Source: Natrinema sp. SYSU A 869 (GTDB taxonomy: Archaea > Halobacteriota > Halobacteria > Halobacteriales > Natrialbaceae). Taken from it: a DNA stretch of 64,000 bases. Location: positions 806,001 through 870,000 of the forward strand of contig NZ_CP082249.1 of NCBI RefSeq assembly GCF_019879105.1, read 5' to 3'. This document shows positions 3,410 to 7,554 of this stretch, piece by piece (positions within the stretch are counted from its first letter, which is position 1; every line of letters starts with the position of its first letter). The notes beneath the pieces were generated by a model. It was not told the origin of the DNA and ran no database searches. It worked only from the letters and a program-made list of their open reading frames with translations. The translations under genes were made by a program, and so were the position numbers.

Positions 3410-4147
3410 ATGCGAATCGTCTCACGGCGACGACTTGGGGTTTGCGTCATGCAGATCGAACAAACGCAGCTGTCGTGGCCGGGAGCGCGGCTCGAACGAC
3501 AGTGAGGGCTGCGCGATCCAATGGAAGAGCAAACTCTTCCGAGCAGCGAGGGACCAGCAGTCCCTCGAGCAGTCGGCGCGAAGTCGTTCGAACGATCGAA
3601 GATCGTTCGTGATGCCGAAAATCGGAGATTTTCGGGCCACGCCGACAGCCTCGCGGAAACGAAGTTTCCGCTCAACGGGAGAGGGCAGGCGGTTACCAGA
3701 TTCCGACCGCGAGCGGACCCGAAGGGTGAGCGAGCGGGCCGACGACTGGCCCAGAAGCCGCGTTTGGCACGGCTGACGGGGAAGGAGGAGTGTTCTCGTG
3801 AACGAAGTGAACGAGAGTTCGGAAGACGCAAAGCGTCTTCCGGTACTTTTGATCGAAACTGAGCGGGATCGAAGATCCCGCGAGGTCGTCGGGCGGCAGC
3901 GCCGCCCGACTGCAAGCGATTCCTCCGGAATCGCCCAGTCCAAAAGAGCGCTTCGCGCTCTTTTGAAGATTTTACCGAGGGACATCGCGGTCGTGGTGGT
4001 TTGCGACCGCGATAGACCGTCGTTCGAGACGGCGAAGCCGTCTCGTGATCAAGCGAAACCGACGGTTTCGCTGACCTCGCGGAACTTCGTTCCGCTCAGT
4101 CACGAAAGACGCTTCGCGTCTTTCGAACGACAGAGTGAAATTTCGGT
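3410..4147. other. Gene-free spacer dominated by a hairpin array
   Basis: This 738-bp stretch between rnp3 and the TbsP-like gene has no credible coding sequence. Frames that stay open across it have low-complexity Arg/Ser translations and no recognisable motif. Its structure is given in the repeat entry for 3523-4125. Sequence before 3523 and after 4125 is short and shows no RNA gene. Both flanking genes run leftward, so the spacer separates the downstream end of the TbsP-like gene from the promoter side of rnp3. Confidence 0.8.
3523..4125. repeat. Array of about 15 perfect short palindromes, mostly with 3-nt GAA/TTC loops
   Basis: Consecutive perfect inverted repeats, each with a different stem: 3523-3540, 3548-3566, 3589-3609, 3615-3635, 3653-3671, 3794-3816 (weaker), 3821-3841, 3863-3881, 3888-3910, 3916-3934, 3941-3965, 3984-4013, 4025-4045, 4052-4072, 4079-4095 and 4103-4125. 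Stems are mostly 7-11 bp. Most loops are exactly three bases and usually GAA or its complement TTC, for example CGAACGATC-GAA-GATCGTTCG, GCGGGATC-GAA-GATCCCGC and AAAAGAGCGC-TTC-GCGCTCTTTT. Only the loop and the geometry are shared, not the stem sequence, so this is not an ordinary repeat family. There are no direct repeats of CRISPR type. Function is unknown. Confidence 0.85.
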
Positions 4148-5373: not shown

Positions 5374-7554
5374 TCACTGATCGAACCGCTTACTCAATTC
5401 TTTCGACCAGTAGATGTCGCCGTCATAGATTACCGACGCTTCCGTCTCTTCGAGCATGGTCGCCAGTTCCGGCTCCGCCAGCGTAAAACTCGACTCGTTC
5501 CCACAGAGGTGGGCGTACTCATTAGTCTCGGTGTGCGGGAAGTAGTATGACCCGGTCACCCGCGTCGAATAGCAATCGAGCGTCAATAGGTACTGCTGGT
5601 CGCTCTCGCCTGTCTCGAGTTCCTCGAGTCGCGCGGTCGTCGGATTGCGGTTTTCGCCCTGGGTAAGTGAGTGGGTGCCGTCGCCGACGACGGCGTAGTC
5701 TTTGCCCATCATGATCCGTCTGCGAGCGAGCGCCATCGCGCGTTCGATGCTGAAGCCGTGAACCAGTAGTTTGGCGAACGTCGATCCGACCTTGACGGCG
5801 TGGTCGTTCAACACCTTGGTGAACGTGACGGCACCGGCGACGCTCCCCTTTTCGATTAGGTTCATGCCCTCGTAGAAGGAGCCACAGGCGTTCAGGAAAA
5901 ACGTCTGTGCGTTACAGCGATCGAGGCTTGAGGTCGCGAGCGTCCCGTCGGGACAGCACAGTCCGCCGGTTTCGCAGTGGCCGATGTAGTGGACGAAATC
6001 GTGGTCGTCCTCCAAGACGCGGGCGAGGTCGGCCGTCTCGAGCGACTCCGCGACGGTGAGATCCATCGTGAGTTCCTCGGAGCGCTGACGATAGATCTCG
6101 GCGACGTCGTCGTGCTCGCCGGCCATCTCCGGATCGTTGAGGACGACACAGATCGAGGTCGAGTCGCTCGTCCGCTCGAGGAAGTCCAGCCGGTTGTGGT
6201 AGGCCGTGGGCGTCGATTTGAAGACGTCGATCGGGACACCGTCCGCGAGCCAGCCGTGGGTGCGGCCGCTCCGGAGGTCGGGTTTGACGATGTCGACCGA
6301 GGCGACCTGACCGGTAGTGGCCCGACTGGGTCCGGGGTCGCCGCCGACTCCGGCCCCGTGTCCGGCTTCGATTCCGGAGGCTAGTTCAGCGGGTCCGGAA
6401 CCGTCGCCCCGATAGAAGTCCTCGAGCGAGCGTTCGACTAACTCCTGGCCCTCGAGCTCGGAGGTTCGGGGCGTGTAAATCATGCTCAGCCGGTCGAGCA
6501 AGAAGGGGAGCGTTTCGACGCTGTCGTAGGTCGGAGTGACGTACGTCGAGAGGTGCCACTCCGGGAGGCGGTGTTTGATTGCTGCGTAGGGGACGTCGAG
6601 GTAGGTCGCCAGTCGGTCCTGTGGCGACGCGTGATACAGCACGTCAGCGTCGAGACCGAGCGCCGCGAGCAGGCTGTGCTCCGAGAGGGTCGTTCCGTGG
6701 GGACCGGCGTTCCGGACGAGGCAATCGAGGAAGAACGTCTTCCGAAGCAGTTGCTCGACGTCGCGCTCTAAGTTTGGCATCGGCGAGAGTTCCTCCTCGA
6801 TGGCGTGATCGCGGAGCCGGAGCCGCGGTCGCTCGAGGGCCGCCCCGGGTCGGTTTCCGAGTGCCTCGTCCGTCGTACGGACGGTTGCCTGCAGGTAGTA
6901 CGCCAGCGGCGCGGTCACGAACAGCGATTCGAACTCCGGCGGGACGATCAGTTCGATCCCGTGATCGGGAGTATCGGACCGAATACAGTCGGAAATCTCG
7001 AGTTCGTCGCCGCGTTCGATCAGCGACGGGTGGCCGCGGAGGGTGGGGTACGACCGGTCCGAGCGGTCGGTCTTGTGCGAGGCGGCCATGTGAGTAATGG
7101 CTTCGGCGATTGCCGACGGGGAGTCCGGCACAGTGATCGTGCCGGCGGGGAACTCGTGGCGACAGCGGACCCCGAGGATGACGCGCGTTCGCTCCGGAAA
7201 AGAAACGATGATCTCCTCGTAGTCGTCGGTCTTTTCGATCGTCGCCACACCGGCGAACCGGAGGTAGGCCTTGATCTCCGTATCGATGTCGACGATGTAC
7301 TCGCCGGGCGATAGCGTGAGCGGCTCTCCGCTGGGGTCAAGTTCGTACTGCTCCTCGAGTCCGAGGGAGAACGCGTAGACGACCGCGTGGGGGAATCGGA
7401 GCTCGTCCGTCGTCAGGGCGACCGTCTCGTCAACCGGGCGCGAAACGTCGGCGTCGGAACTGTTGACGTCGAGTTCGTCACCGTTGACCGCTAACTCGGC
7501 GTTGTCCGCGTCGGTGACGTGGAGGGTGTCGCCGTCTACCGCCCACTCGATCAT
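5374..7554 (-). CDS. CHAT-domain protease-like protein
   Basis: A 726-residue protein. The C-terminal half contains the caspase-like CHAT pattern: HYIGHCETGGLCC with the presumed catalytic His at residue 526, then TFFLNACGSFYEGMNLIEKG with the catalytic Cys at 557 and AGAVTFTKVLNDHAVKVG after it. CHAT proteins are cysteine peptidases related to separase and caspases, and some are activated by partner sensors. The first 450 residues hold no TPR array I can see; they begin with beta-rich sequence (MIEWAVDGDTLHVTDADNAE) and include a Gly/Ala-rich linker near residues 390-410. No signal peptide or membrane segment is seen, so it is probably cytoplasmic. It is monocistronic. Substrate and trigger are unknown. 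Confidence 0.8.
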   Translation of the reverse strand: MIEWAVDGDTLHVTDADNAELAVNGDELDVNSSDADVSRPVDETVALTTDELRFPHAVVYAFSLGLEEQYELDPSGEPLTLSPGEYIVDIDTEIKAYLRFAGVATIEKTDDYEEIIVSFPERTRVILGVRCRHEFPAGTITVPDSPSAIAEAITHMAASHKTDRSDRSYPTLRGHPSLIERGDELEISDCIRSDTPDHGIELIVPPEFESLFVTAPLAYYLQATVRTTDEALGNRPGAALERPRLRLRDHAIEEELSPMPNLERDVEQLLRKTFFLDCLVRNAGPHGTTLSEHSLLAALGLDADVLYHASPQDRLATYLDVPYAAIKHRLPEWHLSTYVTPTYDSVETLPFLLDRLSMIYTPRTSELEGQELVERSLEDFYRGDGSGPAELASGIEAGHGAGVGGDPGPSRATTGQVASVDIVKPDLRSGRTHGWLADGVPIDVFKSTPTAYHNRLDFLERTSDSTSICVVLNDPEMAGEHDDVAEIYRQRSEELTMDLTVAESLETADLARVLEDDHDFVHYIGHCETGGLCCPDGTLATSSLDRCNAQTFFLNACGSFYEGMNLIEKGSVAGAVTFTKVLNDHAVKVGSTFAKLLVHGFSIERAMALARRRIMMGKDYAVVGDGTHSLTQGENRNPTTARLEELETGESDQQYLLTLDCYSTRVTGSYYFPHTETNEYAHLCGNESSFTLAEPELATMLEETEASVIYDGDIYWSKELSKRFDQ

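Follow-up and report, generated by a model that had tools for sequence, protein, structure and literature searches.

A hairpin array in a Natrinema genome as a probable nest of mobile double-hairpin elements

The hairpin array and its surroundings

The window that we analyze here is a stretch of 64,000 nucleotides from Natrinema sp. SYSU A 869, part of a 3.9-Mb contig within a genome of 5.67 Mb. Between a regulator gene and rnp3, it carries a region crowded with perfect hairpins. A sequence-only reading had described about fifteen of them at 3523–4125, most with three unpaired bases, and a search for inverted repeats (stem of 7–11 bp, loop of up to 5) agrees well: there are 14 perfect inverted repeats, 11 of them with 3-nt loops, and 7 of those 11 loops are GAA or TTC. 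The hairpins do lie within those limits, but the element that holds them is longer, about 3476–4147, and reaches from the stop codon of the regulator almost to the start of rnp3.

This whole element, a dispersed host element with hairpin insertions, is on the minus strand and ends in a conserved 3′ sequence, CTCCCGGCCA; its boundaries are common to the orthologous intergenic regions and to paralogs. The 5′ arm of an outer stem, P1 (ACCGAAATTTCACTCTG, 4131–4147, minus strand), comes directly after the stop codon, and P1 covaries in 73 copies. At 4019–4131 there is a double-hairpin unit of the form GTCGTT(D)TGATCA...TCAGTCA(A)AACGAC with a second pair of hairpins, C and B, inserted in its linker, as seen from a comparison of linkers and from matches to a covariance model (R2, see below) at 4019–4078 (50.7 bits) and 4086–4131. 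The inverted-repeat search places hairpin A at 4103–4125 (10 bp, loop TTC), B at 4079–4095 (7 bp, loop TTC), C at 4052–4072 (10 bp, loop A), and D at 4025–4045 (9 bp, loop GAA). Together with the relatives, it also places hairpin E, with a 10-bp outer stem, inside P1 at 3984–4013.

A block of four hairpins at 3863–3965 sits in the 3′ arm of P1, with the pair F/I split by the pair G/H. The same block is found in paralogs, and relatives differ in whether this site carries such a pair (L010/L017, L025/L018). The inverted repeats are F (3941–3965, 11 bp, loop TTC), G (3916–3934, 8 bp, loop TCC), H (3888–3910, 10 bp, loop AGC), and I (3863–3881, 8 bp, loop GAA). A further pair at 3792–3846, between AAAAGTAC and ACTCCTCC, consists of an imperfect hairpin (3793–3817) and one of 10 bp with loop AAA (3820–3842); it comes from comparison with relatives and a weak R2 match of 22.7 bits. 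The same inverted-repeat search gives hairpins K (3653–3671, 8 bp, loop GAA), N (3547–3567, 8 bp, loop CAGCA), and O (3523–3540, 7 bp, loop CAAA), as well as L and M, which form the nested unit described below.

Could such an array arise by chance, or from the composition of GC-rich intergenic DNA? We found nothing in favor of that explanation. A third-order Markov null produces 21 triloop hairpins with a stem of 8 or more bp in 464 kb, or about 0.03 per 603 bp; the 603 bp of the array hold 11. The DNA fold of 3523–4125 has z = −11.9, with 0/20 shuffles as good, and a reversed control pattern has near zero matches. The two checks that had been proposed, folding against shuffled controls and counting hairpins in randomized sequence of the same composition, both come out on the side of the array. 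It is genuine and lies far beyond chance expectation, and we give the chance explanation practically no credence.

Two plus-strand open reading frames, of 113 and 122 aa, overlap the array element, and neither shows any sign of being a genuine gene. We rejected a coding origin of the array for lack of such signs and because a related insertion in a tnpA gene, described below, carries a stop codon. Elsewhere in the window, the minus strand has a predicted protein of 726 aa (5374–7554) that looks CHAT-domain-like by eye.

A dispersed host element

Used as a query against its own genome, the array matches 100 places at E ≤ 10, and the best match off the locus is 89% identical over 307 bases. The hairpins at 3863–3934 reappear with their order unchanged at G000:C3:877851-877994 and in other places, and the intervening linkers (GACCTC, TCAGTCA, TCATCA, TTGCA, AACGAC) are conserved. 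The sequence-only reading had regarded the stems as unrelated to each other and duplication as unable to explain them. Neither statement holds at the scale of the genome, where stems recur and the array appears to be a combination of mobile double-hairpin units with a dispersed host repeat.

In 70 of 78 copies, which fall in 15 locus groups (L002-L029, L107-L166), the host element starts 0–5 nt past the stop codon of a co-oriented gene. These upstream genes, which we named by eye, presumably include those for the polD large subunit, ribosomal protein L10e, an Lrp-like regulator, and an acyl-CoA dehydrogenase. The suggestion that arrays might occupy the same locus in relatives is right for the host and less so for the hairpins: most of 28 congeners have the host element at this intergenic site, but with few or different hairpins. 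In the 3′ domain of the host, identity is 0.848 between copies at the same locus, 0.806 between copies in the same genome, and 0.792 between copies that share neither. Since orthologs are more alike than paralogs of one genome, the host loci are old, and concerted evolution between the copies of a genome is unsupported. Many host elements also sit at fixed loci across the genus, which indicates that most copies are old and have not moved recently. A model of the host 3′ domain has matches in 91 of 391 haloarchaeal genomes, mostly within the window's family. The host is thus an older dispersed element, with a conserved core, at the 3′ ends of housekeeping genes; it might act as a terminator or 3′ UTR element, or be an old mobile element. 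In other genera, double-hairpin units are seen within larger repeats of another kind, whose ends are, for example, CAGCCAGAAAGCCCC...GGGGCTTTCTGGCTG (L186, L209, L224, L365-L376).

The double-hairpin element

The hairpins of the array are modules of a dispersed family that we call the double-hairpin element (DHE). In a DHE, a conserved 6-nt linker connects two perfect hairpins, and the ends, T(G/C)GT(T/C)...AACGA, are conserved as well. The commonest unit has 54–62 nt and the consensus GTGGTT-hairpin-TCATCA-hairpin-AACGAC, which is biased because the genome scan from which some unit counts derive prescribed part of the second hairpin.

The covariance model R2, whose E-values are rough because its calibration was shortened, finds DHEs in 357 of 391 haloarchaeal genomes and in 84 of 86 genera. 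When a phylum-wide sample is searched with R2, 75 genomes match, all of the same order, and none of 300 others does (those listed are all of other classes). Counting both strands, the model has 56 matches in the genome of the window. A BLAST search with the consensus gives only haloarchaeal plasmids among the records listed, with almost no annotation beneath the matches in the plasmid records, and no match to phage records. The array itself has nothing above the curated threshold in Rfam, the best hit being at E 0.041 (21.2 bits, for a threshold of 100). No paper in the open collection searched, which takes in few subscription journals, has the hairpin sequences that we looked for; an element present in almost every surveyed haloarchaeal genome thus appears to be undescribed.

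The stems, in contrast, are not conserved in sequence: when all genomes are pooled, the 546 clustered hairpins have 213 different arms. Hairpin pairs of a second type, joined by different linkers (ATGCGA, GAGCAG), also occur, sometimes beside the first (L034:640-800, L190 around 3874, L216 around 1866). The metagenome-assembled genome (MAG) QS_8_65_32 (L179, L183, and others) has 64 triloop hairpins in 112 kb and the window's genome 54 in 400 kb, a comparison that is biased because the loci were chosen for holding a unit.

Insertion and nesting

The clearest case of mobility is in the window's own genome, where a 54-bp DHE interrupts a tnpA gene (G000:C2:335797-336210, L309). The insert, TCGTC(CGAAGATC..)TGATCA(CGAGAGAC..)AACGA, sits at CTGTCG^CTCCA without any duplication or loss of target sequence; it is in frame and brings a stop codon. 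A second tnpA copy, about 93% identical by eye in the alignment, is an intact, uninterrupted transposase gene free of DHE. The stop codon that the insert adds, together with the intact state of the second copy, marks the difference as a gain and not a loss. We found no donor of this insert in the genome within 3 mismatches. The right-end hairpin of TnpB elements provides another set of filled and empty sites: it holds a clean DHE in Halorubrum and Halegenticoccus and is empty in Halolamina, Halobellus, and Haladaptatus. The DHEs inside this hairpin (L184, L187, L194) lie where the guide RNA would be encoded, and may inactivate it.

The sites of insertion have much in common. The flanks of 95 oriented units are nearly all of the form G^unit^C. 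Where the flanks complement each other, 16 of 20 cases have the offset that a unit entering 1 nt 5′ of a triloop would produce, and they represent about 7 distinct host hairpins. The array contains such a nest. A host hairpin, GTCGGCG..CGCCGAC (3572–3646, minus strand, GTCGGCG^CTTCGCGCCGAC), is split one base 5′ of its triloop by a double-hairpin unit, GTGGCC(CGAAAATC)GCATCA(CGAACGATC)AACGAC, at 3583–3640 on the minus strand (R2 match of 48.7 bits, E 7.7e-11), whose two hairpins are L (3589–3609, 9 bp, loop GAA) and M (3615–3635, 9 bp, loop GGA). Equivalent nests are found in L043/L086 and L044, that of L043 being the same nest in inverted orientation, and nesting goes deeper in L069 and L073. 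Relatives gain or lose hairpins in pairs at fixed points, as in L025/L018 and L010/L017. Through repeated entry one base 5′ of another hairpin's triloop, arrays grow by nesting.

By eye, the arrays in L064 and L073 seem to adjoin partial tRNA 3′ ends beside an intact tRNA gene, an arrangement that looks like an integration site.

Structure probably maintained at the DNA level

All pair and loop counts given in this section come from copies related by descent, and are not independent. About 97–99% of arm pairs are Watson-Crick, with 1592 of 1613 in a set of 88 units. At positions that the search pattern left free, 60 of 64 pairs are complementary. Comparing stems with their nearest neighbors, we count 54 paired versus 23 single changes. 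The few mismatches present do not favor G.U, with 3 G.U versus 3 A.C in 407 pairs; a larger set of 741 pairs has 9 versus 4, with arbitrary orientation.

The loops carry a signal of their own. The preference for GAA and TTC that had been noticed in the array is genuine and belongs to a broader GNA/TNC rule, which holds for 421 of 546 clustered triloop hairpins against a background of 11–17%. Locally, 53 of 85 triloop hairpins have such loops (same background), and the closing pair is C-G in 84 of 85 unique ones. The DNA mini-hairpin d(GCGNAGC) is extraordinarily stable, with GAA its best-known member. Loops of the GNA and TNC forms occur about equally often, and in 504 pairs of hairpins with the same arms and the same flanks, the loops differ by exact reverse complement. 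Paired changes in the arms, the lack of a G.U excess, the GNA/TNC loops, and loop inversion together lead us to favor a structure maintained at the DNA level, as opposed to an RNA gene.

Weighing the explanations

The position of the host element just after stop codons, the paired changes in P1, and the fact that RNA families can gain and lose helices would all suit a structured non-coding RNA or 3′ UTR element, in which selection acts on the RNA helices, some of them optional. The stems, however, have no G.U excess, the Rfam search is empty above threshold, and the triloops are of the DNA type with GNA and TNC about equal, a balance that a strand-specific RNA would not give. Units also occur in either orientation, and one lies within a tnpA gene. 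We find this explanation quite improbable. If instead selection acted on DNA, for a protein that binds cruciforms or hairpins in chromosome organization or at a replication or recombination site, with mobility incidental, one would understand why pairing persists amid free sequence change with no G.U bias, why units are in almost every haloarchaeon, and why some host loci are conserved genus-wide. It is harder to reconcile with the strong variation among relatives in the presence, number, and nesting of hairpins at the same locus, or with insertions into a transposase gene and TnpB ends that look selfish, and we regard it as unlikely.

Among known mobile elements, REPINs and GTAG REPs move by RAYT transposases, and the GTAG REPs often have GT pairs (PMC3116915, PMC3733652). 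DHEs are likewise non-autonomous two-hairpin mobile units, dispersed and often clustered, without target duplication; they insert in IS605-type ends, and their genome has 7 matches to Y1 transposases, one of them interrupted by a unit. They differ from REPINs in their feet, GTGGTT, TCATCA, and AACGAC with no GTAG or CGTC tag, in the absence of GT pairs, and in stems that are not conserved in sequence and vary by paired changes. A Y1 transposase does not stand out as the partner: no units flank any of the 7 Y1 matches, and no Y1 transposase was found in the unit-rich MAG QS_8_65_32, which can be incomplete. No linked RAYT was found in these same two places, and no mobilizing enzyme was identified. 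That DHEs are REPIN-type elements moved by a haloarchaeal RAYT or Y1 transposase has, in our view, a small chance of being correct. The explanation in which we have good confidence takes the array to consist of small mobile DNA elements nested in one another. Observed directly are their dispersal, clean insertion and nesting, pairing that survives changes of sequence, and loop inversion.

How the arms stay perfect and what moves the unit

Template switching can homogenize the arms of inverted repeats and invert their spacers (PMC8604942), and it can make or repair perfect stems, which has been raised for RNA genes as an alternative to stepwise compensatory mutation (PMC8794818). Both hallmarks, arm homogenization and loop inversion, are seen in DHEs, which makes template switching between the arms the likeliest process keeping them perfect, a choice that we favor by a modest degree. 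The sequence-only reading had named, as one of two options, a mechanism in which one arm is copied from the other by switching at the triloop, and the paired arm changes, the lack of G.U excess, and the exact loop inversion fit it best. Selection for pairing at the DNA level would likewise yield no G.U excess. In one genome (G160), the arms, at a divergence of 0.317, have changed about as much as some of the flanks (0.10–0.31), a result that gives no support to faster-than-neutral arm evolution and fits either process.

The mechanism that we propose for the nest of mobile elements would then be as follows. An enzyme acting in trans would insert units into single-stranded DNA folded into hairpins; the units would enter between G and C without target duplication, repeatedly just 5′ of an existing triloop, so that they pile up. 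The arms would be kept perfect, and also diversified, mainly by replication template switching from one arm to the other, presumably helped by the very stable C-GNA-G triloop. As an alternative mobilizer, a hairpin nuclease such as Mre11-Rad50 could possibly open the tips. In its widest form, which we hold tentatively as a little short of an even prospect, the idea is of a selfish DNA, spread through the whole haloarchaeal class, that acts at the level of hairpin structure: it targets tips and nests recursively, its arms are repaired and rewritten by replication template switching, and its form is inherited while its sequence drifts. DHEs provide a dense natural record for testing template switching versus stepwise compensatory mutation in perfect stems.

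Known relatives

The closest resemblance is to the SMR-A repeats of Haloquadratum walsbyi (HqIRS42, HqIRS43, HqIRS55), transposase-free elements of about 110 bp with prominent terminal inverted repeats and an enigmatic mobilization, which insert without target duplication within the near-terminal palindromes of IS605-type transposons (PMC3119063). DHEs are also haloarchaeal, transposase-free, and dispersed, and comparison of filled and empty sites shows no target duplication. They too insert in IS605-type near-terminal palindromes, at TnpB right ends, but most DHEs are elsewhere. At 54–62 nt they are shorter, their ends are only imperfectly complementary, and their arms are variable and perfectly paired; and they occur in 84 genera, as opposed to the one species from which SMR-A, known to us by description, has been reported. 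Given the differences in length and terminal repeats, and a comparison made from the description only, we do not file DHEs as SMR-A. R2 has no match in one Haloquadratum plasmid, PL47. By analogy, DHEs may work like SMR-A, and they may link these enigmatic repeats to a general hairpin-targeting process. The PATEs (palindrome-associated transposable elements) of Haloquadratum, which derive from IS605-type ends (PMC3119063), are similarly haloarchaeal, transposase-free palindromes without target duplication. DHEs, in contrast, insert into IS605-type ends, and we saw no similarity to such ends in them.

Outside the archaea, double-hairpin elements have been described in Allomyces mitochondrial DNA (Paquin 2000, as cited in PMC7218506), and yeast mitochondrial DNA has GC clusters with AG/ACT flanking duplications (PMC4478555). 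Like these, DHEs are short mobile units of two stem-loops, dispersed and merging into clusters; unlike them, they are in archaeal chromosomes and plasmids and have no AG/ACT flanking duplications, and the likeness is one of behavior. DHEs differ from MITEs in having no target duplication, with shared transposon ends sought at the Y1 loci only. In its lack of target duplication and its preference for hairpin tips, DHE movement resembles the single-strand transposition of IS200/IS605.
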